A stretch of DNA of 64,000 bases from Haloplanus aerogenes (GCF_003856835.1 NZ_CP034145.1:3038001-3102000), one strand, 5' to 3'; counted from the first letter of the stretch, positions 27,570-59,331 are shown. Notes: generated from the sequence alone by a model not told the origin. Numbers and translations are program-made.

Positions 27570-27625
27570 GGGGAAGGAATCGGGCCGAACACGGCAAAAA
27601 CCTCGGGGTGGTTCACCTGCGACCT

Positions 27626-28866: not shown

Positions 28867-28890
28867 ACGCTGGTCGATTCGGCGTTCCCT

Positions 28891-28898: not shown

Positions 28899-28952
28899 TC
28901 CGAAATAGTTGTGGTCCAGTCTTATGTGGATAGGGAGCGATGTTCACTGTCG

Positions 28953-30332: not shown

Positions 30333-30378
30333 GAGCTAACCGCCGCGAGGCCTTAGGACGGCCGACACTGCCCACGAC

Positions 30379-40186: not shown

Positions 40187-41284
40187 ATGGAACGGACAGC
40201 GACGAGACGGGCGTTTCTCGCGGCCACGGGCATGGGGGTAGCTGGACTGGCCGGCTGTCTCGGCGGGACGGGCGGCGGAGCGGGAGGCGACGGCGACACT
40301 GCGTCGCCCACCGGCACGACGACGGGGACGCCGATTCCGGGCGAGTCGTCCCTGCTCCTCAACTGGAAGCCGAGCGGCCTCCACGTCCCCTACTTCGCCG
40401 CGAAGGCGAACGGGTTCTACGAGGAGGAGGGACTGACGCTCGGCGAGATTCAGACGGGCGAGGGGTCGACGTTCTCGGCCAAGCAGGCCGGCCTCGGCAA
40501 CGTCGACTTCGCGGTCACCAGCAGTGATCAGGTGTTGAACGTCAACAGCCGCGACCTCTCGCCGCAGTCGGTGGGCGTCGTGATGCAGAAGAGCCCGGCC
40601 GTGGTGTTCTCCACCCGCGACACCTTCGGGGGCGAACTGACGAGCGTCGACCAGCTTGCGGGCAAGACGGTCGGCACCGGCCCGGGAATGGTCCGGATGC
40701 TCACGACGCTCCTGCTGGAGGAGGCGGGCGTCCGCGAGGACGTGGAGATGGTCGACACCGGCTACGACACGGTCCAGCAGCTCCTCTCGGGCGAAATCGA
40801 CGCCGCTGGCGGCGTCTTCGGCGACGCCATCAGCGCCGAGGCGCAGGACTACACCGTCGACAGCATTCCGGTGGGGAACACCATCCCCTCCTACGGACAC
40901 GTGATCGCCGTGAACCGGGAGTGGGCCGGGAACAACTCGCCGGCCGTGCGCGCGTTCCTCCGGGCGACCGCCCGCGGGGCGGCGTGGGCCCAGCAACGCC
41001 CCGGCGAGGCGACGGACCTCCTGATCGACGCCAACGGCGTCCTCGAGGAGTCACGCGACCAGCAGCGTCGGAAGTGGGAGACGATGGCCGCGGAGTTCAT
41101 GACCGGCGACGCGGTGGCCGAACACGGCTGGGGGTGGAGTCGAAGTGAACCGTGGCAGGTCGTCCACGACGCCCTCGCGGGCGCCGACGCCCTCGGCGGC
41201 GAGGTCGACCCCGCCTCGGTCTGGACCAACGAGTATCTGGACACCGACTACCGCTTCGTGGGCTCCTACACCGACATCGTCTGA
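40187..41284 (+). CDS. ABC substrate-binding lipoprotein, NMT1/THI5-like
   Basis: 365 residues. A Tat lipoprotein signal is present: TRRAFLAATGMGVAGLAGC with the lipid-anchored Cys at residue 24, followed by a Gly/Thr-rich linker. The ligand-binding fold begins LLNWKPSGLHVPYFAAKANGFY and continues with GKTVGTGPGMVRMLTTLLLEEAG. The family binds thiamine-precursor pyrimidines, sulfonates, taurine or similar small anions or aromatics. The permease gene overlaps its stop by 1 nt, so it is the receptor of this importer. The LNWxPxG motif recurs in two signal-less proteins in the window. Confidence 0.92.
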   Translation: MERTATRRAFLAATGMGVAGLAGCLGGTGGGAGGDGDTASPTGTTTGTPIPGESSLLLNWKPSGLHVPYFAAKANGFYEEEGLTLGEIQTGEGSTFSAKQAGLGNVDFAVTSSDQVLNVNSRDLSPQSVGVVMQKSPAVVFSTRDTFGGELTSVDQLAGKTVGTGPGMVRMLTTLLLEEAGVREDVEMVDTGYDTVQQLLSGEIDAAGGVFGDAISAEAQDYTVDSIPVGNTIPSYGHVIAVNREWAGNNSPAVRAFLRATARGAAWAQQRPGEATDLLIDANGVLEESRDQQRRKWETMAAEFMTGDAVAEHGWGWSRSEPWQVVHDALAGADALGGEVDPASVWTNEYLDTDYRFVGSYTDIV

Positions 41285-42087
41285 TGGCAACGAGTGACCG
41301 ACGACTGACGACGGTCGAAACGCCCGCCGTAAGCGGCCGGGCCGTCCGGGCAGTCGTCGGCCACGTCTGGCCGCCGGTCGTCGTCGCCGCCCTCGTCGTC
41401 ACCGGCTGGCAGTGGTTCGTGACGGCGACGGGCGTTCCCGAGGTCATCCTGCCCGCACCCGGCGACGTGGTGACGGCGGGGCTGGCGGCGCAGGACACCC
41501 TCCTCGCCGCCGCAGCGACGACCGCACTGACGGCAACGGTCGGGCTACTGGGCGGCGTCGTCGTCGGCCTCACCCTCGCCTTCGCGATGGTGGGGTCACG
41601 GACCGCCTCGGCCATCTTCCACCCCTACCTGATCGCCCTCCGCATCGCGCCGCTGATCGCCATCGCACCGCTCGTCTTCCTCTGGATCGGTGACGGCGTC
41701 CTCGCGCGGGCGACGCTCGTGGCGACGATGACCGTCTTCCCCGTCGCCATCGCGTCGGTCGACGGCCTCCGGGCGGTGCCGGAGGAGTACACCGACCTCG
41801 CGCGGTCGGTGCGGGCACCGTCGGCGCGGGTCTTCCTCCGAATTCGCATCCCGGCCGCCGCGCCGAGCGTCTTCGCGGGCGTGAAACTCGGGGCGGCGCT
41901 CGCCGTCGTCGGCACCGTCGTCGCGGAATTTCTCACCCTCCAGTCGGGGCTGGGCTACCAGTTGTTCCACGCCGCGGAGTATCTCCGGACCAGTACGACC
42001 TTCGCGGCACTGGTCGTCCTCACGGCGCTCGGTCTCTGTTTCTACCTGATTCCTGCGGCCGTGGAGCGTCGGCTGGACTGGGGGTAA
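41284..42087 (+). CDS. ABC importer permease (SsuC/ThiX-like)
   Basis: 267 residues from ATG 41284, which shares one base with the TGA of the binding-protein gene. Six membrane helices, with the EAA loop as EEYTDLARSVRAPSARVFLRI and then PAAAPSVFAGVKLGAALAVVG. This loop contacts the ATPase. There is no ATPase gene on this strand; the nearest is on the opposite strand 835 bp away. The gene converges with a second permease gene with only 5 nt between the stops. Confidence 0.92.
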   Translation: MATSDRRLTTVETPAVSGRAVRAVVGHVWPPVVVAALVVTGWQWFVTATGVPEVILPAPGDVVTAGLAAQDTLLAAAATTALTATVGLLGGVVVGLTLAFAMVGSRTASAIFHPYLIALRIAPLIAIAPLVFLWIGDGVLARATLVATMTVFPVAIASVDGLRAVPEEYTDLARSVRAPSARVFLRIRIPAAAPSVFAGVKLGAALAVVGTVVAEFLTLQSGLGYQLFHAAEYLRTSTTFAALVVLTALGLCFYLIPAAVERRLDWG

Positions 42088-42092
42088 CTCCG

Positions 42093-42878
42093 CTAGTCCC
42101 ACGCGACGGCACGGTAACACAGCGCCACGCCGCCGTAGAGACAGAGGCCCACACAGAGCAGGACAGTCAGCGCGGCGAGCATCACGTCCACCTGGACGTT
42201 CTCGGAGGCGACGAGGATCAGCGAGCCGAGGCCGTCGTTCGAGAGGATCCACTCGGCGACGACGGCGCCGACGACGGCCAGCGTGACCGACTGTTTCACG
42301 CCCGCGAACACGTCGGGGAGGGCGTGGGGGAGGCGGACGTGGAGGAACGTCTGGACGGCGCCGGCGTCGACCGACCGGAGCAAGTCGAGGTGGGACTCGG
42401 GCGTGCGATCCAGCCCCGCCGCCGTCCCGACGACGACGGGGAAGAAGACGATGAGCGCGACGAAGAGGATGGCCGTCTCGAAGCCGACGCCGAAGTAGAT
42501 GAGGAAGATGGGCGCGACGGCGATTTTCGGGAGGACGCGCGCGGCGACGAGGTAGGGGTAGATGGCGCGTTTGAGCAGGGGCACCGCCCAGACGAGGAGC
42601 GCGAGCGAGAAGCCGACGGCGATGCCGGCGGCGCCGCCGACGAGGATCTTGCGGAGTGTCTCGACGGCGTTCGTCAGGTAGAGGTCGGGGTTGCCGACGA
42701 GGCGGGCGGCCACGGCGGCAGGCGACGGGAGGAGAAAGGGTGGAATGGCGAGGGCGACGGTGAGCGCCCACCAGACGGCGACGGCGCCGATCAGCGCCGA
42801 CAGCGGGAGAACGATTCCGGGAAACGGCACCCGCTCCGCGACGCTCATAGTCGTGAGCCGATGCCGGGCGTTCGCCAT
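42093..42878 (-). CDS. ABC importer permease (SsuC/ThiX-like), second copy
   Basis: 261 residues from ATG 42878; ATG 42848 (MSVAERV) is an alternative that removes 10 residues. Six membrane helices; the EAA loop is PESHLDLLRSVDAGAVQTFLHV followed by PHALPDVFAGVKQSVTLAVVG. It differs substantially from the plus-strand permease, so it is a paralogue from an older duplication or a separate system. It follows the ATPase gene by 43 nt in the minus-strand operon. Confidence 0.9.
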   Translation of the reverse strand: MANARHRLTTMSVAERVPFPGIVLPLSALIGAVAVWWALTVALAIPPFLLPSPAAVAARLVGNPDLYLTNAVETLRKILVGGAAGIAVGFSLALLVWAVPLLKRAIYPYLVAARVLPKIAVAPIFLIYFGVGFETAILFVALIVFFPVVVGTAAGLDRTPESHLDLLRSVDAGAVQTFLHVRLPHALPDVFAGVKQSVTLAVVGAVVAEWILSNDGLGSLILVASENVQVDVMLAALTVLLCVGLCLYGGVALCYRAVAWD

Positions 42879-42921
42879 GACGGTCCGGCGAACGGTCGAC
42901 GAACGGGGGCGACGCGCTCGA

Positions 42922-43698
42922 TCATGCGTCGTCGTGGAGCGCGCCGCGCACCTGTGCGACCTGCCGGCCGAACGCCTCCGACCCGAACACCGACTCGTCT
43001 CGCGGGCGCGGGAGGTCGATGTCGAACTCCGCGACGATGCGGCCGGGGTCGCCGTTGCCCGTCGCGGCGTGGCCGTCGGCCGGGGCACCGGCGACGACGA
43101 GACAGCGGTCGCCGAGGAAGACGGCCTCGGGAACGCTGTGGGTGACGAAGACGACAGTCTTGCGGTTCTCACGCCACAGGCGGAGGATCTCGACGCTCAT
43201 CTCGTCGCGGGTGATCTCGTCGAGTTCCCCGAAGGGTTCGTCCATGAGCAACACGTCGGCGCCGAGGTGGATGGCGCGGGCGATGGCGACCCGCTGTTTC
43301 ATGCCGCCGGAGAGTTCGGCGGGACGGGCGTCCTCGAACCCGTCGAGGCCGGTCGTCGCCAGCAACTCGCGCGCGCCGGCGGGATCGGAATCCTTGCCCG
43401 CCATCCGCCGGAGGAAGGTGACGTTCTCCAGCGCCGACTTCCACGGGAGGAGAGTGTGATCCTGGAAGACGAACCCGAGGCGGGCGTCGGCCTGCGCGAC
43501 TTCGGGCGGGTCGCCGTCGATGCTGACCCGGCCGGTCGTCGGTGACTCTAGGCCGCCGATGGTTCGCAAGAGCGTGGTCTTGCCACACCCGGACGGACCG
43601 ACGATGGTGACGAACTCGCCGTCCGCGATGTCGAGCGACACGTCGTCGAGCGCCCGGAGGTCGCCGTAACTGACGGAGAGGTTCTCGACCCGAATCAT
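42922..43698 (-). CDS. ABC importer ATPase (SsuB/ThiZ-like)
   Basis: 258 residues from ATG 43698, overlapping the upstream regulator's stop by 4 nt. Walker A GPSGCGKTT near residues 35-43, Q-loop FVFQDHTLLPW, signature LSGGMKQR, Walker B LLMDEPFGELD and the switch His in VFVTHSVPEA are all intact. It is the only ATPase in this locus and so probably energises both permeases. The sequence is typical of nitrate/sulfonate/taurine/thiamine-precursor importers. Confidence 0.95.
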   Translation of the reverse strand: MIRVENLSVSYGDLRALDDVSLDIADGEFVTIVGPSGCGKTTLLRTIGGLESPTTGRVSIDGDPPEVAQADARLGFVFQDHTLLPWKSALENVTFLRRMAGKDSDPAGARELLATTGLDGFEDARPAELSGGMKQRVAIARAIHLGADVLLMDEPFGELDEITRDEMSVEILRLWRENRKTVVFVTHSVPEAVFLGDRCLVVAGAPADGHAATGNGDPGRIVAEFDIDLPRPRDESVFGSEAFGRQVAQVRGALHDDA

Positions 43699-44975
43699 CG
43701 CTGGTCGATGGCCGCGGCCTGTTCGAGTGCGACGCGGAGCCGCTCCCACGTCTCGGCTGAGTGCCACCCCCAACCGTTCTTCTCGACGGCGTCGCCGCCA
43801 GCGAAGCGGTCGAACGCGCCCTCCAGCTTGCGGCGCTCGTCGGCGACGGGCTCGTCGCTGTGGCCGGCGACGGTCGTCGCCGCCGCTTCGGGGTCGTTTC
43901 GGGCGTCGGCCCAGCCGGCCATCGCGCCTTCGAGGAAACCCCGGAGCGCGTCGGGACGCTCCCGGAGCGTCTCGCGGCGGACGACGAAGGCGGGGCCGGG
44001 GACGGGGAAGTGGTCGGCGAGCAGCACCGAGTCCACGTCGTAGCCCGCGGCCTCCAGTTCGAGGGGGTCGGTGAAGACGCCGGTCGCCACGTCCGCGTCG
44101 CCGTCGAGCAACGCCTCGCGTTCCTCGCCGTCGGCACGGACGACGGTCACGTCGTCGACGACGCCGGCTTGGGCGAGAAAGAGCCGGCCGAGGGCGCCCG
44201 TCTCGGAGCCGGCGGGCATCGCCACGCGCCTGCCGCGCACGTCTTCGACGCTGCGGAGCGGGCCGCCGAAGGCCGACCGGGTCGTGTAGAGGACGACCAT
44301 CGCGCGCTGGTAGTAGAGCGCGAGGGGGACGACATCCTCGCCACCCGCGTGTGCGCGAAGAAGCGTGGCGGCGCCGGTGAGCCCCACGTCCACGTCGCCG
44401 TCGGCGACGGCGGAGAGGGCGGCCCGGGAGCCGCGACAGCCCGTGAGCGTCACGTCGACGCCGTGGTCGGCGTAGGTGCCGGCGAAAAGGGGCGCGTGGA
44501 GCCCGTTGGGCTCCCAGTTCAGGCCGACGTCGACGGCGCCGGCGTCGCGGTCGGGTGGGGTGGGGCCGGTTGTGTCGACGGCGATGTCGTCGCCGAGCGT
44601 CGAGGCAACCGTGGCCGCCTGATCGAGCAACGCTTCGGAGTGTCGAGCGCGCACGCGAGAAACGGTACGGTCGTGGCCGGCGGCGGCGCGCCAGCCTTTC
44701 GGCGGGCGGCCGGGCGCCTCGCTGTCGACGGTCGTCTCGACGACGAGCCCCAGATCCGTGAGCGTTCCCAGCACGTCCGAGACGCGGCCACGGCCGAGGT
44801 CGACGCCGACGCGAACGGCGAGACGCGACGCCGCCTCGCCGGAAAAGCGGTCGGACTCCTCGCGGCCGACCAGATAGGCGAGGACGCGCGCAGCCTCGCG
44901 GTCGAGACCCGTGGCGAACGCCTCGACCGTCCGTTCGTCCTCGTCACCGAGGATGGGGAACTCTCGAACTCGCAC
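43695..44975 (-). CDS. HTH regulator fused to NMT1/THI5-like ligand-binding domain
   Basis: 426 residues from GTG 44975, with a strong TATA (TTTATATAT at 44997-45005) 22 bp upstream, so the mRNA is leaderless. Residues 1-110 form a DNA-binding winged-helix region: DREAARVLAYLVGREES and VSDVLGTLTDLGLVVETT. From about residue 150 a substrate-binding fold begins with VGLNWEPNGLHAPLFAG and ends AVEKNGWGWHSAETWERL. No signal peptide is present, so the binding domain is inside the cell. The gene heads the ATPase/permease operon. It would sense the imported ligand and control the transporter; a helper enzyme is a less likely alternative. Confidence 0.8.
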   Translation of the reverse strand: MRVREFPILGDEDERTVEAFATGLDREAARVLAYLVGREESDRFSGEAASRLAVRVGVDLGRGRVSDVLGTLTDLGLVVETTVDSEAPGRPPKGWRAAAGHDRTVSRVRARHSEALLDQAATVASTLGDDIAVDTTGPTPPDRDAGAVDVGLNWEPNGLHAPLFAGTYADHGVDVTLTGCRGSRAALSAVADGDVDVGLTGAATLLRAHAGGEDVVPLALYYQRAMVVLYTTRSAFGGPLRSVEDVRGRRVAMPAGSETGALGRLFLAQAGVVDDVTVVRADGEEREALLDGDADVATGVFTDPLELEAAGYDVDSVLLADHFPVPGPAFVVRRETLRERPDALRGFLEGAMAGWADARNDPEAAATTVAGHSDEPVADERRKLEGAFDRFAGGDAVEKNGWGWHSAETWERLRVALEQAAAIDQR

Positions 44976-45117
44976 GTCCCTACCTTGGCCCCTCGGGATA
45001 TATAAACTGCGTGCGGCCGCTGGCTGATACGTTGAATATCGTATACGTTCGGCCGTGTGTGGGAGTGCCTGACGCAAATTCATCAGCTTTAAGAGTTGGA
45101 AACCAAAGTTCGTGCCG

Positions 45118-45666
45118 ATGGTCTCAAAGCAGCCGAAGAAGTTCCTGTCGCGGCGAAAATTCGCAGCCACGTTCAGCGGTGCCGTTCTCGCTGGACTCGC
45201 GGGCTGTTCCGGTGGTAACGGTGGCGGCAACGGTGGCGAAGACGGTGGCGAGGCTACAGCGACGGCGACCGCCACGGATACGCCCGAACCGACGGCGACA
45301 GCGACGGCAACTCCCACGTCGACGCCGACCGAAGAGGCCGACGCGACGATTACGGTCGGCCCGGGCGGCAGCCTCGAATTCGATCCGGAGACCACGGCAA
45401 TTTCGCAGGGCGACACGGTTGAGTTCGTCTTCGACTCCGGCGGTCACAACGTCTCCGGTCACCCCGACGCCCATCCCAAAGTCTCTCTCCCCGAGGGTGC
45501 CGAACCGTTCGCGAGCTACGACATCTCCGGCGACGACATCAACCACATCTCGCTCAACAAGGCCGGATCGACGTACCGACACACGTTCGAGACGACCGGC
45601 GAGTACACCTACGTCTGTGTCCCCCACGCAGCGTCGGGCATGATCGGTCATCTGACCGTCCGATAA
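45118..45666 (+). CDS. Halocyanin-like blue copper lipoprotein
   Basis: 182 residues from ATG 45118; a GTG 6 nt earlier is possible. A Tat signal with lipobox is present (SRRKFAATFSGAVLAGLAGC), then a Gly/Asn and Thr/Pro/Glu-rich linker. The cupredoxin domain contains the copper ligands His in GGHNVSG, Cys in YVCVPH, the following His and Met in SGMIGH. These proteins carry electrons at the outer face of the membrane. It precedes the PQQ-dehydrogenase operon by 165 bp and could be its electron acceptor. Confidence 0.92.
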   Translation: MVSKQPKKFLSRRKFAATFSGAVLAGLAGCSGGNGGGNGGEDGGEATATATATDTPEPTATATATPTSTPTEEADATITVGPGGSLEFDPETTAISQGDTVEFVFDSGGHNVSGHPDAHPKVSLPEGAEPFASYDISGDDINHISLNKAGSTYRHTFETTGEYTYVCVPHAASGMIGHLTVR

Positions 45667-45831: not shown

Positions 45832-46749
45832 ATGTCGCAATATGTAAACGGAATGCCCCAGATCGACCAAGAGGATCGACGGCAGTTCCTCAAGGTCGTC
45901 GGGTTGACCGGCGCAGTGGCAGCAGGCAGCGAGTTCACCCTGAGCGATCTCAGGGGCGAAGTAGAAGGGGAAGCGGCGGGGGAACTCGCCGCCATGGGCG
46001 AAGCGATTCGCAGCGACCTCGTCGGCACGCTCGACGCGGGTCTGCTCGGTAGCGAGCTCGCCTCCCTCGAAGGTCAGATCGAACGCCTCCCCGAACTGCG
46101 GGCGATGGGCGTTCCGGCCGAAGACAGTACAGAGTATCAGACGCTCGCCGAGCCCGGCTGGGCGATCCACGAGCATCTCGTCGAAGTCGGCTTCTTCGAG
46201 AGCGTCGAGGAGCACCTGCCGGAGTTCACGCCCGAGCACATCGGGGCGACGGCGCGCGAGTTCATCAACACGGCGGCGCTCGCGTCCGCGCTCGCCGAAC
46301 TCGGCTACAGTGAAGAAGAGCTGACGTCGACGGTCGTCAACGTCGTCAACAACAAGGAACGCCTGGCCATGTGGGTGCCGACGAAGAACATCCCGGCCGG
46401 CGTCGAAGGGTTCGACCCCGCGAACATCGCCCCGCTCCACCAGCGAGCGTCGGCCGGTGTTCTGCTGTGGACGGACTACCTCGACACGTACCTCTGGCAG
46501 AACGAGGTGCTCCTGACGGACACGATCCTCGACAACAACTACGGCGACCTCAAGCAGATGTACGCCGGCCTGCACCTGCTCGCGAACGCGGCCGAAGACC
46601 TCGCGGGTTCGCAGGAACTCAGCGACGCGCAGCTCACGGCTGCGCTGTCCGCCGGCGCCGCGATGATGATCGTCGGACAGGAAGACCTGACGAACGACGT
46701 GATGCGCATCACGGACGAAATGCGCGCCCCGCGCACGGGAGGTGCGTAA
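45832..46749 (+). CDS. Tat-signal accessory subunit of the PQQ dehydrogenase
   Basis: 305 residues. A twin-arginine signal is visible at residues 15-33 (DRRQFLKVVGLTGAVAAGS). The mature part is almost entirely helical and acidic, with no cofactor motif, heme CxxCH or metal cluster. The gene lies 3 nt before the PQQ-dehydrogenase gene, whose product has no export signal. By analogy with the Tat-signal small subunit of gluconate 2-dehydrogenase, this protein could carry the dehydrogenase across the membrane as a folded complex. This is an inference; no family was recognised. Confidence 0.7.
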   Translation: MSQYVNGMPQIDQEDRRQFLKVVGLTGAVAAGSEFTLSDLRGEVEGEAAGELAAMGEAIRSDLVGTLDAGLLGSELASLEGQIERLPELRAMGVPAEDSTEYQTLAEPGWAIHEHLVEVGFFESVEEHLPEFTPEHIGATAREFINTAALASALAELGYSEEELTSTVVNVVNNKERLAMWVPTKNIPAGVEGFDPANIAPLHQRASAGVLLWTDYLDTYLWQNEVLLTDTILDNNYGDLKQMYAGLHLLANAAEDLAGSQELSDAQLTAALSAGAAMMIVGQEDLTNDVMRITDEMRAPRTGGA

Positions 46750-46752: not shown

Positions 46753-48486
46753 ATGGCGACTATCCACCAGGCTTTCGACAAGGACCCGGCAGCAGAAGCA
46801 GCAGCGAACATCGAGATGGTGGAGGTGGAAGACGGGTACACGCTGACGAACGTACCCGACGAGTCCATCACCGCTCAGTTCGATATTGACCAGATCCCCC
46901 AGAAGAACGTCACCCAGGAGATGCGTGAGGCCTCCGCGAAGGAGGACCCCACGTCCTGGCTGATGTACGGTGGCGGCTATCAGCAGCAGCGCCATACCTC
47001 GGCCGACGTCATCACGAAGGACAACGTCGGCGACCTCGAACTCGAGTATCTGGTGCAGAGCGGCGTCGCCTCCAGTATGGAGGGTGTCCCGATCGTCGTG
47101 CCCGGCGACCCGCCGGTCATGTACCAGACGAACGGGCCGAACCACGCGAAGGCGATCAACGCCCGCACCGGTGAGACCCTCTGGAGTTACACGTACGCGA
47201 ACCCGCAGGGCCTGCTTCTCTGCTGTGACGCGAACAACCGTGGCTTCGCTGTCCACGGCAACAAGGTCTACATGACCACCCTCGACTCCGGTGTCGTGGC
47301 GCTCAACCGCTACACCGGCGAAGAGGAATGGTACACCTCGACCGGTGACCACGAGATCGGTTACTCCGCGACCTGGGCCCCCATCGTCCACGAGGGCAAG
47401 GTCATCACCGGCTCCGCCGGTGGCGAGTACGGTGTCAGCGGGTTCGTCACCGCCCTCAACCCGGACAACGGGAACGAGATCTGGAAGACGAACACGACGC
47501 CCCCGGAGGAGTGGGCCGGCGATTCCCACGAACACGGTGCCGGTACCGTGTGGATGACGCCGACGCTCGACCCCGACAGCGGCATGATCCACGCGCCGGT
47601 CGGTAACCCCGGTCCGGACTTCGACGGCACGGTCCGTCCGGGTCCGAACCGCTACACCATCGGGACGCTGACCCTCAGCGCCGACGATGGCTCCGTCCAG
47701 TGGCACTACGGCGAGTCGCCCCACGACGTGTGGGACTACGACTCCTCGGCGCCCAAGATCCGTGTCAACGACATGGACATGGGCGACGGCACGCGCGACG
47801 TCGTCCTCAGTCCCGGCAAGACGGCCTGGGTCTACACGATGGACGCCGGCAACGGCCGGCTCCTCGAGCGCTCCCAGGAGACGACCCAGCACATCAACAT
47901 GTGGAAGATGGTCCCGCACGTCGACGAGGACCGTCGGGTCGCCTTCGTCCCCGGTGCGCACGGTGGCAACGACTGGCAGCCCCCGTCCTACAACCCCGAG
48001 ACGGGGCTCATGTACATGAACCAGAACAACGCGCCTCACGAGATCTTCTGGGAAGAGGCGCAGTACGAAGCCGGCCAGACCTACTGGGGCGGCGGCCTGA
48101 ACGACTGGCCGGACGTCACCGAGCCGCAGGGCTGGAACGGCAACCTCAGCGCCATCGTCGCCGTCGACCCGGTCACCGGAGAACGGGTCTGGCGCGACTG
48201 GATCTCCTCGGACGCCACCAGCGACTACCTCTGGGGCGGCTCCATCACGACTGCGACCGGCATCACCTTCGCTGGCCTCCAGACCGGCCACCTCGTCGCC
48301 TACGACGGCGAAACGGGTGACCGTCTCTGGCAGTTCCAGCTCGGTGCGCCGATCTGCTCGTCGCTCTCCAGCTGGTACGACCCCGGCGAGGGCAAGCAGT
48401 ACGTCGCCGTGCAGGTCGGTGGCTCCGGTTGGCTCCACGGCGGTCGCCGTGGCTCCACCGTCGCCGTCTTCGGCCTCAGCGAGTAA
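46753..48486 (+). CDS. PQQ-dependent alcohol dehydrogenase, lanthanide-type signature
   Basis: 577 residues, the usual size of quinoprotein alcohol dehydrogenases, with eight-bladed propeller W-motifs throughout. The vicinal disulfide is C157-C158; the active site shows E225 in SAGGEYGV, N285 in VGNPGP and catalytic D328 in WDYDSS. D330, two residues after D328, is the extra Asp that binds lanthanides in XoxF, ExaF and PedH enzymes; calcium enzymes lack it. There is no heme domain and no signal peptide at the N-terminus. Oxidation of an alcohol outside the cytoplasm with electrons passed to the neighbouring cupredoxins is the likely role; the substrate is unknown. Confidence 0.9.
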   Translation: MATIHQAFDKDPAAEAAANIEMVEVEDGYTLTNVPDESITAQFDIDQIPQKNVTQEMREASAKEDPTSWLMYGGGYQQQRHTSADVITKDNVGDLELEYLVQSGVASSMEGVPIVVPGDPPVMYQTNGPNHAKAINARTGETLWSYTYANPQGLLLCCDANNRGFAVHGNKVYMTTLDSGVVALNRYTGEEEWYTSTGDHEIGYSATWAPIVHEGKVITGSAGGEYGVSGFVTALNPDNGNEIWKTNTTPPEEWAGDSHEHGAGTVWMTPTLDPDSGMIHAPVGNPGPDFDGTVRPGPNRYTIGTLTLSADDGSVQWHYGESPHDVWDYDSSAPKIRVNDMDMGDGTRDVVLSPGKTAWVYTMDAGNGRLLERSQETTQHINMWKMVPHVDEDRRVAFVPGAHGGNDWQPPSYNPETGLMYMNQNNAPHEIFWEEAQYEAGQTYWGGGLNDWPDVTEPQGWNGNLSAIVAVDPVTGERVWRDWISSDATSDYLWGGSITTATGITFAGLQTGHLVAYDGETGDRLWQFQLGAPICSSLSSWYDPGEGKQYVAVQVGGSGWLHGGRRGSTVAVFGLSE

Positions 48487-48606: not shown

Positions 48607-49233
48607 ATGGCGACGCGAAGAAAATTCCTGATCGGTGCTGCGGCAGCGACGACCGGACTTGCTGGCGCCGCGGGATCGGCAACTGCACAGGTAGACACGA
48701 CGTTCGAACTCGAACTGACACAGCAAGGCTTCCTCGGCCGGGCACCCTCCAGTATCGCCGGTACGACGAACCCGACACTGGAAGTCGAAGCTGGGACCCG
48801 GTATGCGATCCAGTGGACGAACAGCTACAACCCCGAGAGCGAGGGACTGCCGGCGCGGCACAACCTCGTCATCACGACCGACGACGGAGTCGTCCGACGT
48901 GGCGAGTACGTCTTCGAGACGGGACAGACTCGGACGGTACGCTTCACGGCCAACTCCGGCCTCTCCGAGTACTTCTGTGAAGAACACATGGACGAAGGCG
49001 GCGAGTTCTCGGTTAGTGGCGGCGCGACGGCGACGCCGACGGACACCCCCGAGCCGACGGCGACGGATACGCCGATGGACGGCGACGGCGACGGCGGTGA
49101 CGGCGGCGACGGCGGTGACGGCGACGGCGGCGGCGAGACCAACGGCGGCGGCCCCGGCTTCGGCGTCGGTGCGGCCGTGACCGCCATCGGTGCGGCAGCC
49201 TACGGCGCGCTGCGGAAGAAGAGCGACGAGTAA
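48607..49233 (+). CDS. Cupredoxin with Tat signal and PGF-CTERM anchor
   Basis: 208 residues. The N-terminus is a Tat signal (TRRKFLIGAAAATTGLAGAAG). The core has copper-type ligands: His in ARHNLVI, Cys in EYFCEEH, the following His, and Met in HMDEGG. A Thr/Pro/Asp/Gly linker leads to a C-terminal PGFGVGAAV segment, helix and basic tail RKK: the PGF-CTERM signal processed by archaeosortase A, which attaches proteins to lipid at the cell surface. A TATA-like TTTATTTAA lies 23 bp before the ATG. It is a second candidate electron acceptor for the PQQ dehydrogenase. Confidence 0.85.
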   Translation: MATRRKFLIGAAAATTGLAGAAGSATAQVDTTFELELTQQGFLGRAPSSIAGTTNPTLEVEAGTRYAIQWTNSYNPESEGLPARHNLVITTDDGVVRRGEYVFETGQTRTVRFTANSGLSEYFCEEHMDEGGEFSVSGGATATPTDTPEPTATDTPMDGDGDGGDGGDGGDGDGGGETNGGGPGFGVGAAVTAIGAAAYGALRKKSDE

Positions 49234-50063: not shown

Positions 50064-52181
50064 CTAGTCGTCGGCCGGGGCGTCGGGTTCGACCGAGACC
50101 TCGATTTCTGCGGCGGCGGCCTTGTACTCGGGAATCTTCGCGCGCTCGTCGAGCACGTCGTTGGTCAGGCGGTTGCCCGCGGCGTCGGCGAAGTGCGGGG
50201 TCGTCCACACGGTGCCTTCCTTGATGTCCTCGGTGACGCGAGCCTCGACTTCGATCTCGCCGCGCCGGGATTTGAGTGTCACGTAGTCACCGTCCTCGAT
50301 GCCGTAGTTCTCGGCGTCGTTCGGGTGAACGTCGACGAAGTTCTCGGGTTCGACGCGGTTGAGCGTCGCGGACCGACGGCTCATCGTCCCCGTGTTGTAG
50401 TGTTCGATGATCCGACCCGTGGTGAGGATGAGCGGGTACTCGTCGTCCGGCGTCTCCTTGGGTGGCTGGTGACGCACGCCCTCGATCTGTCCGAGGCCGC
50501 TCTCGGTAGTGAAGCCGTCCTCGTAGAGGTACGGGTCGCCCTCGTCGCCGGGTTCGTAGCAGGGCCAGTGGACACCCTCCTCGCCGAGGACGTCGTAGGT
50601 CATGCCGTGGAAGATGGGCGCGACCTGCCGGAGTTCCTCGAACACGTCCTCGGGACCCTCGAAGTCGAAGCTCCCGTCGCCGAACAGGCGGTTGCCCACG
50701 TCACACAGGATTTCGAGGTCGTCTTTCGTGTTCGGGTGAACCTTGTCGACGCCGCGCATCCGCTGGGTACGGCGGTCCGTGTTGACGACGGTGCCGTCGC
50801 GTTCCGCCCACGAGGTGGCGGGCAGAATCACGTCGGCGTACTCGGCGGTTTCGGTCTTGTAGATGTCCTGAACCACCATGAAGTCGAGTTCTTCGAGCCG
50901 CTTCTCGACCTGGTTGGTGTCGGGTTCGCTCATCACGGGGTTCTCGCCCATGATGTAGAGGCCGTAGATCGTGTTCCCGATTTCGTGGGACATCTCGACG
51001 TTGGTGAGGCCGGGTTCCGACGGAATCTCGAAGTCCCAGACCTCCTCGACGTCGGCGCGAACCTCGGGATCGGACACGTCGCGGTAGCCGGGGAGGACGT
51101 TCGGCATCGCGCCCACGTCGGACGCACCCTGCACGTTGTTCTGGCCGCGGAGCGGGTTGACACCCGTGCCCGGGCGGCCGAGGTTGCCGGTGATGAGCGC
51201 GAGGTTGATCTCGTTCTGGACGTTGTCGACGCCGCAGGTGTGCTGGCTCATCCCCATGCCGGTGAAGATGGCGGCGTTGTTCGCCTTCGCGTACTTCTCG
51301 GCGGCGAGTTCGATGTCTTCGAGAGGGACGCCGCACTCCTCGGCGGCTTCTTCCTTGTCGAAGTCCTCCAGCGTCTCTTTCAGGTGTTCGAAGCCTTCCG
51401 TGCGCTCCGCGATGAACTCCTCGTCGACCCAGTCGTTCTCGAGGATGGTCTTGAGGACGATGTTGAGCAGCGGAATGTCCGTCCCCGGCTCCAGCTGGAG
51501 ATGCATGTGGCGGTCGGTTTCCGTGATTTCGAACGACCGCGTCGTCTTGTTGGCGTGGGGATCGACCTGAATGACGGTCGCTCCCTCGAGGACTGCCTGC
51601 CGGAAGTACTGGCTGTTGGCGATGGGGTGCTGTTCGCCCGGGTTGGCACCCTGAATCCAGAACACGTCCGCCGCCTCCTCCAGATCCTCCATGCTGTTGG
51701 TCATCGCGCCCTCGCCGAGGCTGTTCTTGAGGGCGTACACCGTCGACGAGTGGCACATCCGCGTACAGGTGTCGACGCTGTTGGTACCGTAGCGACGGGC
51801 GAGTTTCTGGATGAGGTAGTTCTCCTCGTTCATGGCCTTCGAACAGCCGTAGAAGCCCATCGCCTGCGCACTGAACTCGTCGCGGATGCGCTCCATGTTG
51901 TCGACGATCAGGTCGTAGGCTTCGTCCCAGGTGGCCTCGCGAAGTTCGCCGTCGTCGTCACGGATCAGCGGGTCCGTCAACCGGTCCTCGTGGTTTACCG
52001 ACTGCGTCGCCGCCCCGCCCTTGATACAGATGCTCCCTTCGTTGACCGGCGCGTCGCCCCACGGCCGGAAGTTGACTTCACCGTCCTCGTCCTGTGTAAT
52101 TTGGATGCCGCACCCGACCCCACAGTACGGACAGATCGTCTTTTTCGGCCCGCCTGATTCGTCGCTGGATTCGGATGACAT
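50064..52181 (-). CDS. fdhF: Formate dehydrogenase-like molybdopterin oxidoreductase
   Basis: 705 residues, typical of single-subunit FdhF catalytic chains. The N-terminal [4Fe-4S] motif is CPYCGVGCG, closed by Cys in GSICIKGG. The molybdenum ligand is a Cys in TCTRMCHSS near residue 141; no selenocysteine is used. The dinucleotide-binding segments GANPGEQHPIANS and GENPVMSEP, and the C-terminal TTGRIIEHYNTGTMSRR domain, are intact. There is no Tat signal, so the enzyme acts in the cytoplasm. Neither a beta subunit nor fdhD is adjacent. Formate oxidation is the family assignment; another substrate is possible. Confidence 0.88.
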   Translation of the reverse strand: MSSESSDESGGPKKTICPYCGVGCGIQITQDEDGEVNFRPWGDAPVNEGSICIKGGAATQSVNHEDRLTDPLIRDDDGELREATWDEAYDLIVDNMERIRDEFSAQAMGFYGCSKAMNEENYLIQKLARRYGTNSVDTCTRMCHSSTVYALKNSLGEGAMTNSMEDLEEAADVFWIQGANPGEQHPIANSQYFRQAVLEGATVIQVDPHANKTTRSFEITETDRHMHLQLEPGTDIPLLNIVLKTILENDWVDEEFIAERTEGFEHLKETLEDFDKEEAAEECGVPLEDIELAAEKYAKANNAAIFTGMGMSQHTCGVDNVQNEINLALITGNLGRPGTGVNPLRGQNNVQGASDVGAMPNVLPGYRDVSDPEVRADVEEVWDFEIPSEPGLTNVEMSHEIGNTIYGLYIMGENPVMSEPDTNQVEKRLEELDFMVVQDIYKTETAEYADVILPATSWAERDGTVVNTDRRTQRMRGVDKVHPNTKDDLEILCDVGNRLFGDGSFDFEGPEDVFEELRQVAPIFHGMTYDVLGEEGVHWPCYEPGDEGDPYLYEDGFTTESGLGQIEGVRHQPPKETPDDEYPLILTTGRIIEHYNTGTMSRRSATLNRVEPENFVDVHPNDAENYGIEDGDYVTLKSRRGEIEVEARVTEDIKEGTVWTTPHFADAAGNRLTNDVLDERAKIPEYKAAAAEIEVSVEPDAPADD

Positions 52182-52323: not shown

Positions 52324-52920
52324 ATGACCGGTTACGAAGCTTTGGGTGACGGGGGAAACGAAACCACAACCGACCTCACTCGCGAGCGGATCGACGTGCT
52401 CTCGGACGAATACGAAGCGCGCGAACCGTTCGATTTAGTAGAGCGAGAGCACACCGAGACGCTCCCGCGCGCGTTCGCGGCCGGTGACTTCGGCCGCCGC
52501 GACGCCGAGTGGGTGGTCCAGTGGTACTTCCGACGAGGAACCGTCTCGGACAGGGAACGGCGTGAGGCCGAGGAGCGCTTCCTCGACAACGACTACGAGG
52601 AGATGGTCGACGCCATCCAGGGGGCCGCGACGGCCGACACACTCGACGAACAACTCGGGGCGTTGACGACGCTGACCGGCGTCGACGTGCCCGTCGCCTC
52701 GGCGTTTCTGGCCTACAGCCACCCCGAGGAGTACGTCGCCGTCGGTGAGCGGGAGTGGGCGGCGCTGGCCGCGGCGGACGAACTGGACGAGCCGTATCCG
52801 GAGACGGTGACACCGGCCGCGTATCGGCAGTACATCCGGGCCGTCCGGTCTGTCGCGGAGCGAACCGGCCACGACTGCTGGACGGTGTACCGGGCGCTGT
52901 GGCGAGTCGGCGCCGATTAA
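52324..52920 (+). CDS. Hypothetical protein with helix-hairpin-helix-like region
   Basis: 198 residues, acidic and nearly all helical. The segment LTTLTGVDVPVASAFLAYSHPEEY near residues 120-142 resembles a helix-hairpin-helix followed by the Asp/Glu region of DNA glycosylase relatives, but no catalytic Lys or Asp is obvious. The gene is divergent from fdhF (142 bp between starts) and its stop overlaps the convergent binding-protein gene by 4 nt. DNA binding is plausible; a glycosylase is not supported. Confidence 0.6.
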   Translation: MTGYEALGDGGNETTTDLTRERIDVLSDEYEAREPFDLVEREHTETLPRAFAAGDFGRRDAEWVVQWYFRRGTVSDRERREAEERFLDNDYEEMVDAIQGAATADTLDEQLGALTTLTGVDVPVASAFLAYSHPEEYVAVGEREWAALAAADELDEPYPETVTPAAYRQYIRAVRSVAERTGHDCWTVYRALWRVGAD

Positions 52921-53885
52921 CGACCGATCCGCTCGGCGTAGTTCGCGATCACCGGATCGGAGTCGTCGACGTACTCGTTCGTCCACGCCGCGTCGGGGTC
53001 GACCGGCGACTCGAGCAGATCCGTCTCGGCGAGCATCTCGGCCAGATTCTCCCAGCGCTGCCCGTCGTGGTGGCCCCAGCCAGCTTCGCGGACGAACTCC
53101 GTGAACTGGAGATCCTCGGCGGAGGCGAGGAACTTCATGTGTTCGACCTCGCGGTTGTGTTCGAGCTGGGCGTTGCGAGCGATGAGCGCGTCGACGGCGC
53201 GGTCGGGGTCGTTGGTCGCGAGCTCCCACCCGCGAGCCGTCGCCCGCAGGAACGAGCGGACCGTCTCGGGGTTCGACTCGGCGAAGTCCGGGTTGGTGAC
53301 GACGGCCATCCCGTACACGTCGAGGTAGTCGCCGATCAGGAGTTCGTCGGCCGTACGGTCGTACTCGCGTTCGAGTTCCTTGCCGTTGGTGACGACGCCC
53401 ACCGCGGCGTCGACGTCGCCGTCGAGCACCAGATGCTCGACGCGGTGGTGCGTGTGCTTCTGCACGTCCCGGACCTCCACCTTGTCGCGGATGCCCCGGT
53501 CCTCCAGTAGCTGGAGGGTGAGGATGCGGGTCTTGGTGGCCGAGGGGGCGACCGTCCGACCCCGAAGCTGTTCGGGCTCGGTGAACGCCTCGCCGAACAC
53601 GTCGCGGAGGGTGTAGATGGTCGCCGGCGTCTTCTGGCTGACCGCGGCGACGGCCAGCGGTTCGAGTCCCTGACTCCGCACCGAGAGGACGGCACTACCG
53701 CCGGCGAGGCCGAGGTCGCTTCTCCCTTTCGCGGTCTGTTCGGCGGCGAAGGGCGAGCCGTGCCCCTCGACGAATTCGACTTCGAGGCCCTCGTCGGCGT
53801 AGAAACCCTCCTCTCGCGCGAGGAAGTACGGTGCTTGGAAGCCGTTCGGTTCCCAGTTCAGCTGGAAAGTGACAGTGTCGGTCAT
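52917..53885 (-). CDS. Signal-less NMT1/THI5-like binding-fold protein
   Basis: 322 residues starting MTDTVTFQLNWEPNGFQAP. The whole periplasmic-binding fold is present (YFLAREEGFYADEGLEVEFV, then LRGRTVAPSATKTRI and PDFAESNPETVRSFLRATARG), but no signal peptide or lipobox precedes it: the first strand begins at residue 5. It is therefore cytosolic. It shares the LNWEPNG ligand-site motif with the HTH fusion regulator and the exported receptor of the ABC locus. It is the last of four such genes in a row. It may be an enzyme of the THI5 or dihydroxyphthalate-decarboxylase kind, or an intracellular ligand carrier. Confidence 0.8.
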   Translation of the reverse strand: MTDTVTFQLNWEPNGFQAPYFLAREEGFYADEGLEVEFVEGHGSPFAAEQTAKGRSDLGLAGGSAVLSVRSQGLEPLAVAAVSQKTPATIYTLRDVFGEAFTEPEQLRGRTVAPSATKTRILTLQLLEDRGIRDKVEVRDVQKHTHHRVEHLVLDGDVDAAVGVVTNGKELEREYDRTADELLIGDYLDVYGMAVVTNPDFAESNPETVRSFLRATARGWELATNDPDRAVDALIARNAQLEHNREVEHMKFLASAEDLQFTEFVREAGWGHHDGQRWENLAEMLAETDLLESPVDPDAAWTNEYVDDSDPVIANYAERIGR

Positions 53886-54874
53886 GGATCGGTGTTGAAG
53901 GTGCCTTCAGGAATCTCTTCGACGCCGAGTGCCTCGGCGCCAGCGACGGATTTCAGGTGGTCGAACAGTCGGTACATCCCGTCGACGCTCTCCTCGTCCC
54001 AGTCGCGGACGACCATGTCGCGCCAGCCGTCACGGACGGCGCGCATCACGTTGGGGTCGTCGTACGTCATCAGTTTCTCGCTGATTTCCTCCCAGATTTC
54101 GTCGTCCTCGACGAGTTTGTCGACGGCGTCGCGGTAGGCGTCCGCGAACGCCCGGACGGTCTCGGTCTGGTCGTCGAGATAGTCGCCGCTGGTGAGGAAG
54201 GCCGCGATGGGGAGTTTGTTGTCCGTCTCGGAGAGTCGCTGGACCAGTTCGGAGACGGGCAGGACGTTCTCGTAGGGGCCCGTCTCGGTGATTTCGGGGA
54301 TGATCTGCCAGAACTGGAAGCCCGCATCGACCTCTCCCTCGCGGATCATCCGCGTGAGTTCCACCTTCGAGCCCGCTTCGACGGGCGTCGCCGTCTCGTC
54401 GGGATCGAAGTCGTGGTACTCTCGGCAGGCCGCCCGCGTCAGAATCCAGTTCTTGTCCAGACGGCGGACGACGCCGATACGCTTGCCCGACAGATCCTCC
54501 AGCCCGTCGATATCCGAATCCTCGGGCGCGACGAGGCCGCCCACGGTCCGCCCGTACGGGTGGAAGGCGACGATGTCGGCGCCCTCGGCGCGTTCCCGGG
54601 CGATGGAGATGTAGTCGATGTCGATCAGGTCGGCGTGACCCTCCTGCAACTGGGCCTCGACCGTCTCGATGCCGTCCTCCAGTGCGTCGGAGACGAGTTG
54701 CACGTCGAGGTGGAACCCGTGGTCGCGGTCGAAGCCGAACCGCTTGATCGTGTAGAGCAGGTAGCGCGGACTCCCGTTGTGCTCGAAGCGGGCACGCATC
54801 ACCGGCAGGTCGCCCGGATCGTCGTGGTACTCGTCGAGGGCGGCCTGTTGAACGTCGACGTGATCCCGGTTCAT
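53882..54874 (-). CDS. Signal-less binding-fold protein, tandem paralogue A
   Basis: 330 residues from MNRDHVDVQQ; its stop overlaps the next gene by 4 nt. The fold is of the substrate-binding type: RARFEHNGSPRYLLYTIKRFGF, GRTVGGLVAPEDSDIDGLEDLSGKR split over two strands, and DAGFQFWQIIPEITETGPY. No export signal is present. It is closely similar along its whole length to the gene at 55068-56054, so the pair arose by tandem duplication. Conserved cores (HPYGRTVGGLVAPED, RLDKNWILTRAACR) in both copies suggest the same ligand site. No ABC permease or ATPase is adjacent. Confidence 0.8.
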   Translation of the reverse strand: MNRDHVDVQQAALDEYHDDPGDLPVMRARFEHNGSPRYLLYTIKRFGFDRDHGFHLDVQLVSDALEDGIETVEAQLQEGHADLIDIDYISIARERAEGADIVAFHPYGRTVGGLVAPEDSDIDGLEDLSGKRIGVVRRLDKNWILTRAACREYHDFDPDETATPVEAGSKVELTRMIREGEVDAGFQFWQIIPEITETGPYENVLPVSELVQRLSETDNKLPIAAFLTSGDYLDDQTETVRAFADAYRDAVDKLVEDDEIWEEISEKLMTYDDPNVMRAVRDGWRDMVVRDWDEESVDGMYRLFDHLKSVAGAEALGVEEIPEGTFNTDP

Positions 54875-55067
54875 CGGTCCCCGCAAACGCACACAGTCGT
54901 CCGTCGCGTCGACTCGGAGCCGTCACGTCCGGCGTCGCTCTCGGGGGTCGCCCGACAGCGCGCCACGATGGTCTCGTCGGTCGGCATACCCGCAGGGTAC
55001 GACTGTACCGTGATAAAATTTCCTTGGGAAGGTTCATAAGTCCGATTCGCGGACGACGGGGCCACGC

Positions 55068-56054
55068 TCACGGGTCGAGCCAAAACGTTCCGTCGGGTAT
55101 CGTCTCGACGCCGAGGGCGTCGGCGCCGGCGACGGCGTGCAGGTGATCGAACAGTCGGCGCATTCCGGCGATCGTCTCCGCGCCCCACTCGGTGACGACC
55201 ATCTCCCGCCAGCCCGTGGTGACGGCGCTCGCGACGGTGGCGTCCGGCAGTAGTCGGCGGCTGATGTCGTCCCAGATGTCGTCTCTCGTCAGGAGGTGGT
55301 CGACTGCATCCTGCGCGGCGGCGGCGAAGCCCCGCACCGCCTCGGGGTGAGCGTCGAGGTAGGAGTCGCCAGTGACGAACGTCGCGATGGGGAGTTTGTC
55401 GTCGGTGCCGGCGAGTCGCTGGACCAGATCCGACACCGGGAGTACTTCGACGAACCGGCCGGTCTCGGTGAGTTCGGGCACGAGCGGCCAGAACTGGAAG
55501 CCGGCGTCGACCTCGCCTCCCCGGATCAGCCGCGTGAGGTCGTCGCGGGAGTCGGCCTCGACGAGCGTCGCCGTCTCCGCGGGGTCGAAGTCGTGGAACT
55601 TCCGGCAAGCCGCCCGCGTCAAAATCCAGTTCTTGTCGAGCCGACGGGTCACGCCGAGGCGGTGGCCCGAGAGATCAGCCAGTCCCTCGATGGCCGTGTC
55701 CTCGGGTGCGACGAGGCCGCCCACGGTCCGCCCGTAGGGGTGGAACGCGACGATGTTCGCGCCCGCCGCGCGTTCCCGGGCGACGGAGATGTAGTCGGTG
55801 TCGACGAGGTCGGTGTCGCCCTCGTCGAGGCGGTGGCGAATGGTCTCCATGCCGCTCTCGAGTTCGTCGGTGACCAGTTGGACGTCGAGGTGGAAGCCGT
55901 GGCGGTGGTCGAGATCCAACCGCTTGATCGCGTAGAGCAGGAAGCGCGGGCTCCCGTTGTACTCGAAGCGGGCACGCATCACCGGCAGGTCGCCGGGGTC
56001 GTCGTGGTGTGCGTCGAAAGCGGCCTGCTGAGCGTCGACGTGGTCTCGGTTCAT
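55068..56054 (-). CDS. Signal-less binding-fold protein, tandem paralogue B
   Basis: 328 residues, start MNRDHVDAQQ, directly abutting the stop of the upstream gene (next base). The segments HPYGRTVGGLVAPED, RLDKNWILTRAACR, FQFWPLVPELTETGRF and GTFWLDP parallel paralogue A, while the linkers differ. It also lacks an export signal. A 193-bp gap separates it from copy A; that gap contains AT-rich GATAAAATTTCC near 55,012 and so may carry a separate promoter for the downstream pair. Confidence 0.8.
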   Translation of the reverse strand: MNRDHVDAQQAAFDAHHDDPGDLPVMRARFEYNGSPRFLLYAIKRLDLDHRHGFHLDVQLVTDELESGMETIRHRLDEGDTDLVDTDYISVARERAAGANIVAFHPYGRTVGGLVAPEDTAIEGLADLSGHRLGVTRRLDKNWILTRAACRKFHDFDPAETATLVEADSRDDLTRLIRGGEVDAGFQFWPLVPELTETGRFVEVLPVSDLVQRLAGTDDKLPIATFVTGDSYLDAHPEAVRGFAAAAQDAVDHLLTRDDIWDDISRRLLPDATVASAVTTGWREMVVTEWGAETIAGMRRLFDHLHAVAGADALGVETIPDGTFWLDP

Positions 56055-56951
56055 TCACCGCAACGGCGAGACGATGGCGTCGATGTCGGCGTCGCCGTCG
56101 ATCAACTGCCGCCGTTTCATCCAGTCGAGGTGGTAGTCGAGGTCGTCGCGGTCCGCGAGTTCCGGCACCTCGTACTCGGGCACGTCGATAGCGGCGCGGA
56201 CGGCGTCGGCGTCCACGTCCTCGAAGAGATCCGGCGCGACGGCCTCGTCCTTCCAGAGCATGTCGAGGTACTGGTCGCGGTAGGCGTCGGGATCGGCGTT
56301 GATTTCCTCGACGGCACGGCGGTACGCGCGCATGAACGCGTCGAGCGTCTCGCCCTCCAGCGCCTCCGCGCCGACGACGCCCATGTGATTCTCGAATTCC
56401 AGCACTTTCTCGAAGCCGAGGTGTTCGGCGAGGGTGATGTGCGGGTCGAGGAGCGTGACAGCCTCGACGTCGCCGTCCCGGAGCGCGCGGAGGCGGTCGG
56501 TTGGCATCCCGTGACCCTCGATGACCACCTCGTCTTCGTCCATGTGCTCTTCGAGCGCTCGGATGGCCGTGTACTCCTGTCCCGTCCGTCGGTTGACGCC
56601 GACGGGAACGTTCGCCAGATCGGACGGCTCCTCGATATCCGAGTCGGGGCGGACGAACACCGCGTACGGCTGGTCCGCGAAGGTGCCCTTGGCGACGATG
56701 CGGCCGTCGTCGAACTCCCACGTCCGCTTCAGACTCTCCCACTTGCAGATGGGGTAGAGGTCCACGTCGTTGTCGCCGGTCAGCGTCTCCTCCGCCGGAA
56801 TGTACTTGTTCGTCACGCAGGTCCGGTCCCGCTCGATCAACTCGACGTCGAGCCCTTCGTCGGCGAAGTAGCCACGCTCCGCGGCGACGCGCTGGGGCAG
56901 CATGAACGAGAAGGGTAGGTGGAACACCCTGATCGTCTCAGTTGCGGACAT
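56055..56951 (-). CDS. Signal-less NMT1/THI5-like protein, first of the run
   Basis: 298 residues from ATG 56951; a TATA (TTTTATAC at 56975-56982) 24 bp upstream gives a leaderless start. The fold begins at residue 6 (IRVFHLPFSFMLPQRVAAERGYF), so there is no signal peptide. The pocket region has RDRTCVTNKYIPAEE and DLYPICKWESLKR, with two Cys that are not seen in the other three. It heads the operon of four binding-fold genes and is divergent from the cupin gene. An intracellular enzyme such as a decarboxylase or pyrimidine-forming THI5 type is as likely as a binding protein. Confidence 0.8.
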   Translation of the reverse strand: MSATETIRVFHLPFSFMLPQRVAAERGYFADEGLDVELIERDRTCVTNKYIPAEETLTGDNDVDLYPICKWESLKRTWEFDDGRIVAKGTFADQPYAVFVRPDSDIEEPSDLANVPVGVNRRTGQEYTAIRALEEHMDEDEVVIEGHGMPTDRLRALRDGDVEAVTLLDPHITLAEHLGFEKVLEFENHMGVVGAEALEGETLDAFMRAYRRAVEEINADPDAYRDQYLDMLWKDEAVAPDLFEDVDADAVRAAIDVPEYEVPELADRDDLDYHLDWMKRRQLIDGDADIDAIVSPLR

Positions 56952-56974
56952 ACGACGTGGATACGACCATATGA

Positions 56975-57005
56975 GTATAAAAGTTCCTCAGAAACCTTTA
57001 TTAAT
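56975..57005. promoter_or_regulatory. Back-to-back divergent promoters
   Basis: A minus-strand TATA (TTTTATAC, 56975-56982) serves the binding-fold operon and a plus-strand TATA (CTTTATTAAT, 56996-57005) serves the cupin. Only 13 bp separate them, so factors bound here should affect both units. Confidence 0.6.
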
Positions 57006-57039
57006 AGCCCACAGTATCGACTGCGTGGGGACAGATCGA

Positions 57040-57381
57040 ATGAGGCGGATCAACGACGAGCGGGCAGACGACGAACAGGTCGCGGACGGCGTGTATCTCG
57101 CCGACCTCGCGGCTGGTGAGCGCGCGTCGATGAAACACTGGCGAGTCGAACCGGGAGCCACGCTCCCCGTCCACCGGCACGACAACGAGCAGATCGGTTA
57201 CATGATTCGGGGGACACTCACGGCGATCACGGAAAACGAGGAGATCACGCTCCGCCCGGGCGATTCGTACCTGTTCAAATCTGGCGAACTCCACGGTGCC
57301 GAAAACCGCGGCGACGAGCCCGCAGTCGGCATCGGCGTCCTCTCGCCGCCTCGTTCCGATCCGGACTGGAAGCAGTCGTAA
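57040..57381 (+). CDS. Cupin-domain protein
   Basis: 113 residues from ATG 57040. The two cupin motifs are intact: PVHRHDNEQIGYMIRG and PGDSYLFKSGELHGAENRG, with His and Glu/Gln for metal binding. Small cupins act as isomerases, dioxygenases or as sensors. The divergent promoter shared with the four binding-fold genes suggests a common pathway. No further domain is present. Length and motif order are normal for single-domain cupins. Confidence 0.88.
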   Translation: MRRINDERADDEQVADGVYLADLAAGERASMKHWRVEPGATLPVHRHDNEQIGYMIRGTLTAITENEEITLRPGDSYLFKSGELHGAENRGDEPAVGIGVLSPPRSDPDWKQS

Positions 57382-58899: not shown

Positions 58900-59331
58900 A
58901 TGGACGCCGTCGATCACATCAACATCGACGTGGACGACCTCGACGCCGCGTACGAGTTCTACCGGGACGTACTCGACCTCGACCTCCTCCGCCCGCCGGA
59001 GGATTTCAAAGGCGCGCACGTCATGTTCGAGACGGGCGCAGGGACGGTCGTCACGCTGATGGAGACGGGTCGCGCCGAGAAGTGGGACGAGGAAGGGCTG
59101 GATCACCCGCTCGACAAGGCCCACATCGCCTTCGAGACGGATCGCGACACCTATCAGTCCCTAATGGCCCACCTGGAGGGCCAGTTTCCGAAACAGGGGC
59201 CCTACGACTGGGGCGAGTTCGAGGGCTTCTACTTTCTCGATCCCTCGGGGAACCTGCTCGAAATCATCACGTACGATCCGGCGCCAGCGGACCGGGAGCG
59301 GCGGCTGATGGACCACGACGACGTGGAGTAG
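58900..59331 (+). CDS. VOC-superfamily (glyoxalase-like) protein
   Basis: 143 residues from ATG 58900; CCTATATCGG 24-30 bp upstream indicates a leaderless mRNA. The fold is a single glyoxalase/bleomycin-type domain: DHINIDVDDLDAAYEFYRDVL, HIAFETDRDTYQSLM and FYFLDPSGNLLEIITYD, with metal ligands His near 6, His near 76 and Glu near 127. Such proteins are lyases, isomerases or dioxygenases. It follows the MFS carrier by 67 bp. No specific reaction can be assigned. Confidence 0.88.
   Translation: MDAVDHINIDVDDLDAAYEFYRDVLDLDLLRPPEDFKGAHVMFETGAGTVVTLMETGRAEKWDEEGLDHPLDKAHIAFETDRDTYQSLMAHLEGQFPKQGPYDWGEFEGFYFLDPSGNLLEIITYDPAPADRERRLMDHDDVE

Follow-up and report, generated by a model that had tools for sequence, protein, structure and literature searches.

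Two of the proteins described here have as their closest characterized relative PqqT, a periplasmic PQQ-binding protein of Methylorubrum extorquens AM1 (PDB 9b1u, 9b1v, 9ooz). PqqT of M. extorquens binds PQQ at 50 nM (PMC12124388), and replacement of its residue K142 by Asp tunes metal selectivity and binding (PMC12828617). The xoxF gene clusters of Alphaproteobacteria combine XoxF5, a PqqT-like substrate-binding protein (SBP) and the ATPase and permease of an ABC transporter, sometimes along with pqqABCDE. To our knowledge, the PQQ dehydrogenases known so far all work outside the cytoplasm, and we know of no demonstration of lanthanide use in Archaea. In the literature available to us, a search on haloarchaeal PQQ or lanthanide alcohol dehydrogenases found nothing relevant. 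The binding-protein fold is also used inside the cell, both by the HMP-P synthase THI5 and by the NMT1-like regulatory domains of CmpC/NrtC.

We analyzed a 64,000-nt stretch of Haloplanus aerogenes DNA (NZ_CP034145.1:3038001-3102000), hereafter the window, in which an operon of four genes and a divergent cupin gene are located at 52917-57381. The operon lies on the minus strand and is transcribed in the order g4-g3-g2-g1; its genes follow one another directly or with overlaps, save for g3 and g2, which are separated by 193 bp. The first gene, g4 (56055..56951), codes for a leaderless NMT1-family protein of 298 aa. It is followed by the tandem paralogs (69%) g3 (55068..56054, 328 aa) and g2 (53882..54874, start ATG at 54874, 330 aa), the latter a leaderless PqqT-family protein, and by g1 (52917..53885), which codes for a leaderless NMT1-family protein of 322 aa. 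The claim of an earlier note on this DNA that the four adjacent genes share the NMT1/THI5 fold was confirmed: all four ORFs score over the Pfam cut-off for PF09084, g1 with 116 bits and g4 with 45 bits. The cupin gene (57040..57381, plus strand; PF07883, 66 bits) codes for 113 aa. That note took these five genes as the unit, and the operon with its cupin is indeed conserved, but a VOC-family gene at 58900..59331 (plus strand; PF00903), a core member of the cassette in the relatives, had been missed.

Orthologs of g2 are present in 37 of 293 genomes of the order, corresponding to 14 of 87 genera. Identity of the g2 protein is 89-90% in a second genome of the same genus (G199) and in Haloplanus ruber, and 63-76% outside the genus. 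The core made up of g4, g2, g1 and the cupin is kept across genera at roughly 64-76% identity, and the cassette proteins are strongly conserved, with a mean column identity of 74-79%. All 20 extended loci include g4-g2-g1 and the divergent cupin; in a second set of loci with named organisms, which overlaps in part with the first, g4, g2 and the cupin are found in 35/35 and g1 in 34/35. The VOC gene, often directly downstream of g1, is present in 19/20 and 33/35 loci, respectively. We found g3 only in the Haloplanus group (L042, L069 and L070), of which it is a duplicate of g2. One genome (G252:C1:314239-315021) retains only a remnant of g1, interrupted by a stop, and is devoid of g2, g4 and a close dehydrogenase, an apparent loss of the whole system. 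The cassette is also found on large haloarchaeal plasmids (Haloterrigena turkmenica pHTUR02, Halomarina and Natrinema; L065, L066 and other plasmid matches), which fits its patchy spread. Public records label the cassette proteins "ABC transporter substrate-binding protein." Several other genes recur next to the cassette: an aldehyde ferredoxin oxidoreductase, an AAA-type ATPase and a DUF4242 protein (L043, L044, L045, L046, L066 and others), an aldehyde dehydrogenase in other loci (L065) and, in some relatives, a formate dehydrogenase alpha subunit, which in the window is encoded at 50064..52181 on the minus strand (TIGR01591, 752 bits, over the cut-off).

The earlier note had also stated that none of the four proteins carries an export signal. 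Hydropathy of the N-termini is low, and in the 20 loci that were read the orthologs of g1, g2 and g4 lack a signal-like hydrophobic N-terminus. Their frames start at the conserved core, and in most cases the sequence just before it has in-frame stops or offers no start codon that could be used. Misannotated starts hiding signal peptides were ruled out by these upstream frames in the 20 loci. In contrast, clear signals are present in the Tat-lipoprotein SBP of a nearby ABC system and in the bacterial PqqT relatives. Judged from their sequences, the g1-g4 proteins are predicted to be intracellular in all the relatives inspected.

The operon and the cupin gene diverge from a region at 56952..57039 which includes back-to-back TATA boxes around an imperfect palindrome, TATAAAA (56976-56982) for g4 and TTTATTA (56997-57003) for the cupin. 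The shared divergent promoter that had been proposed is thus present, and its two-TATA layout is common to most relatives. When the palindrome was used to scan the relatives' loci, only the g4/cupin promoter was matched, with a matrix so narrow that it missed the window's own site. The cupin probably starts at ATG 57040 rather than at 56902 or 56971, because this position agrees with the starts of its orthologs and because the candidates before it would overlap with g4 or with the promoter.

A search of PDB sequences returned PqqT as the best solved relative of both g2 (9b1u, E 3.9e-29) and g3 (9b1u, E 5e-20). The AlphaFold model of g2 (pLDDT 89) has PqqT as its top three Foldseek matches (9b1v, 9b1u and 9ooz; E about 2e-24, rmsd 2.1 Å, TM 0.83/0.92), the next family following at E 7e-14. 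According to their titles, these PqqT entries are crystals with PQQ or with PQQ and Gd3+. In a maximum-likelihood tree, a clade with 100/100 support unites g2 and g3 with PqqT and with seven SBPs from bacteria, and the genes of these seven SBPs are all (7/7) located in PQQ-dehydrogenase or XoxF clusters. The pocket also appears to be kept. With an offset of 27 between the two numberings, derived from PDB chain ranges, PqqT K142 matches K141 of g2, which is invariant, as are W144 and W189; at Y161, the aromatic residue is F188. On clade and modeled fold, both proteins can be assigned to the PqqT family, whose size they share, and they are likewise encoded near a gene for a PQQ-dependent dehydrogenase. 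They differ from PqqT in that they have a hydrophilic N-terminal extension instead of a signal peptide: all the orthologs inspected are leaderless, whereas all the bacterial relatives bear a signal. Identity of g2 to PqqT and its bacterial relatives is only 28-34%, and the ligand of g2 could have shifted from PQQ. Furthermore, the archaeal operon comes with two additional NMT1 proteins, a VOC protein and a cupin, and is not flanked by ABC genes of its own.

The dehydrogenase in question is a leaderless quinoprotein alcohol dehydrogenase (ADH) encoded at 46753..48486 on the plus strand, with CC, GGE, NPG and WDYD (D-x-D) motifs. It scores 375 bits with the curated PQQ_enz_alc_DH profile TIGR03075, under the cut-off of 480, and is hence a divergent relative. 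We aligned it with its haloarchaeal relatives, two XoxF and two other PQQ-ADHs. The GGE, the NPG stretch and the D-x-D pair are kept in all aligned relatives of the ADH, and the vicinal Cys-Cys in all but one divergent paralog (L082); the window's ADH has the XoxF-like set of vicinal Cys-Cys, GGE and D-x-D. The D-x-D pair is the signature of lanthanide enzymes (PMC8546591, PMC11996626). Close homologs of the ADH, defined by 55% identity or more, are present in 30/37 genomes carrying the cassette vs. 5/256 others (Fisher p 4e-29) and, by genus, in 12/14 vs. 2/73 (p 4e-11), p-values that overstate independence, as genomes share ancestry. In 12/35 named loci, no more than 10 kb separates the ADH gene from the cassette. 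The cassette is not strictly dependent on the ADH, since one complete carrier (G051) is devoid of a full-length quinoprotein ADH and five further carriers have only a homolog of 41-46% identity.

No signal peptide was seen on the ADH in the relatives read. Its gene is preceded by that of a partner protein (45832..46749, plus strand), which has a Tat-like N-terminus in Haloplanus and in L082 but not in most relatives. In Haloplanus, a gene for a halocyanin-like blue copper protein (45118-45666, plus strand), a possible electron acceptor that would suit an exported ADH, adjoins the ADH. Taking into account both the Tat-like N-terminus of the partner and this halocyanin gene, the ADH may be exported in Haloplanus: it is either cytoplasmic or, in this genus, possibly carried out by the partner after folding. 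Under either location, PQQ would be needed in the cytoplasm. Downstream of the ADH, at 48607-49233 (plus strand), we observed a gene for a PGF-CTERM surface protein with a Tat-like start, present among the loci compared only in the window and in H. ruber.

When the carriers were searched with curated cut-offs, PqqE was found in 0/28 and PqqC and PqqB each in 0/20, PqqC being detected in a Ruegeria plasmid used as positive control. Canonical PQQ synthesis was thus rejected for these carriers, and PQQ would have to be either imported or made by another route, unless the ligand is something else. Compared with the xoxF clusters, the haloarchaeal loci likewise bring together a PqqT-family protein and a D-x-D quinoprotein ADH. 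However, both the ADH and the binding proteins are leaderless, pqqB, pqqC and pqqE were not found, and the core has a VOC protein and a cupin instead of cytochrome c, XoxJ-like and CXXCW proteins.

The earlier note saw no ABC partner genes. This holds for the immediate neighbors of the operon but not for the window, which has a complete NMT1-type ABC system at 40187-45416, about 9 kb from the operon; such a system also lies near the ADH or the cassette in several other genomes. The importer itself (40187..43698) comprises a Tat-lipoprotein SBP with a PF09084 domain (40187-41284, plus strand), a permease ending at 42087 (plus strand), a second permease starting from 42093 (minus strand) and an ATPase (42922-43698, minus strand). 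An export signal and dedicated ABC genes, which characterize an importer SBP, are found in this separate system with its own Tat SBP and not in g1-g4. Beside the ABC genes, an HTH-like region fused to an NMT1 domain is encoded at 43695-45416 (minus strand). The NMT1 part is conserved as a neighbor in relatives, and the fusion probably acts as a regulator in the cytoplasm, with the binding-protein domain as its sensor.

The conservation of the cassette, the absence of signals, the clade and structure match with PqqT, the co-occurrence with the ADH and the absence of PqqB, PqqC and PqqE led us to propose, with middling confidence, that the operon is an intracellular module which captures and hands over PQQ or a close PQQ-like ligand. 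From these observations we infer the identity of the ligand, its delivery to the ADH, its route of import and the roles of g1, g4, VOC and cupin. g2 and its copy g3, as PqqT-family proteins without an export signal, would hold the cofactor in the cytoplasm, where the leaderless ADH, probably lanthanide- or calcium-dependent, would be synthesized and supplied with it. The remaining members (g1, g4, VOC and cupin) would work on this ligand or the form in which it is imported, or would serve to sense or buffer it. Since none of the PQQ biosynthesis genes searched for was found in these cells, the cofactor would come from outside, with the linked NMT1-type ABC system as a possible route. No other single reading explains g2/g3 and the genomic association as well as PQQ handling does, although it is weakened by the carrier without a full-length ADH and the five with distant homologs only. 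We advance a broader proposal much more tentatively, and rather doubt that it holds in full: haloarchaea would carry out PQQ biochemistry intracellularly, with leaderless carriers of the PqqT type loading a cytoplasmic lanthanide-type quinoprotein ADH with scavenged PQQ, and with g1, g4, VOC and cupin making up a new cytosolic pathway of PQQ salvage or processing. If this were true, PQQ binding and use would shift from the periplasm to the cytoplasm, and the PqqT family, probably along with lanthanide-type alcohol oxidation, would extend to Archaea. It would also provide a ligand hypothesis for proteins of dozens of haloarchaeal genomes that are annotated only as SBPs.

Operon membership is the only link of g1 and g4 to PQQ. 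The view of the earlier note, with the VOC protein included, holds that the four proteins are enzymes built on a binding-protein fold which, together with VOC and cupin, form an intracellular pathway, e.g., one that modifies or degrades an aromatic or heterocyclic compound taken up by the cell. The lack of leaders and the very high conservation agree with it, as do the aldehyde-oxidizing AOR or ALDH genes that often adjoin the cassette. The fold is known to host enzymes, THI5, MqnD and DszB being among the fold matches. Intracellular chemistry is plausible because the cupin and the VOC protein belong to the conserved operon and keep metal-site residues, conserved histidines in an HxH...E/Q...H arrangement in the former and H/H/E in the latter. 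g4, whose AlphaFold2 model (pLDDT 90) has the SBP fold and no close solved relative, has an invariant Cys-Lys-Trp-Glu-Ser (CKWES) stretch in haloarchaea, and its bacterial relatives also look leaderless. g1 is related in sequence to ThiY-type SBPs and to THI5, its nearest solved relatives (PDB 4nmy, 3ix1 and 4h65), and shares with THI5 the fold and the predicted cytoplasmic location. Nevertheless, when its profile was aligned to THI5, neither the active-site lysine nor the histidine nor the CCCFC motif was kept. We take these residues to be catalytic in THI5, and THI5-like catalysis was ruled out for g1 as they are absent. The parallel with THI5 drawn in the note is not supported for g2 and g3 either, which are PqqT relatives, do not look THI5- or decarboxylase-like by their family matches, and keep the PqqT pocket positions. 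Among Pfam and NCBIfam family profiles, neither 4,5-dihydroxyphthalate decarboxylase nor any other enzyme family was matched. The proposed intracellular pathway is supported as to predicted location and operon structure, but a catalytic residue set was shown for none of the four proteins, and calling them enzymes is a guess. PQQ handling fits g2/g3 better; for g1, g4, VOC and cupin an enzymatic role is possible, and we consider the reading for all four rather unlikely.

Less probable still is a role of the proteins in sensing the ligand in the cytoplasm or in regulating the linked ABC importer, in the manner of the NMT1-like domains of CmpC/NrtC. These regulatory domains (CmpBCD/NrtBCD) are among the fold matches of g4, the probable sensor fusion adjoins the ABC genes, and in the tree the nearest relative of g1 is the SBP of this importer. 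Against this, ABC genes are absent from the 10 kb around most cassette loci, it would be unusual for one importer to be served by three separate conserved sensors, and the cassette proteins form a stand-alone operon instead of being fused to an ABC ATPase. That they are ordinary SBPs which are exported by a route that the sequence does not reveal and supply an ABC transporter, as the public annotation and the ABC system in the window might suggest, is highly improbable, since no ortholog inspected carries a signal, yet clear ones are found on the importer's SBP and the bacterial PqqT relatives.

Upstream in the window, at 23004-31233, we noted genes for a BCCT-like transporter, an FAD/GcvT-type dehydrogenase, a sarcosine-oxidase-like protein, a GcvT-like methyltransferase and a MetF-like protein, by eye a likely glycine-betaine demethylation cluster.
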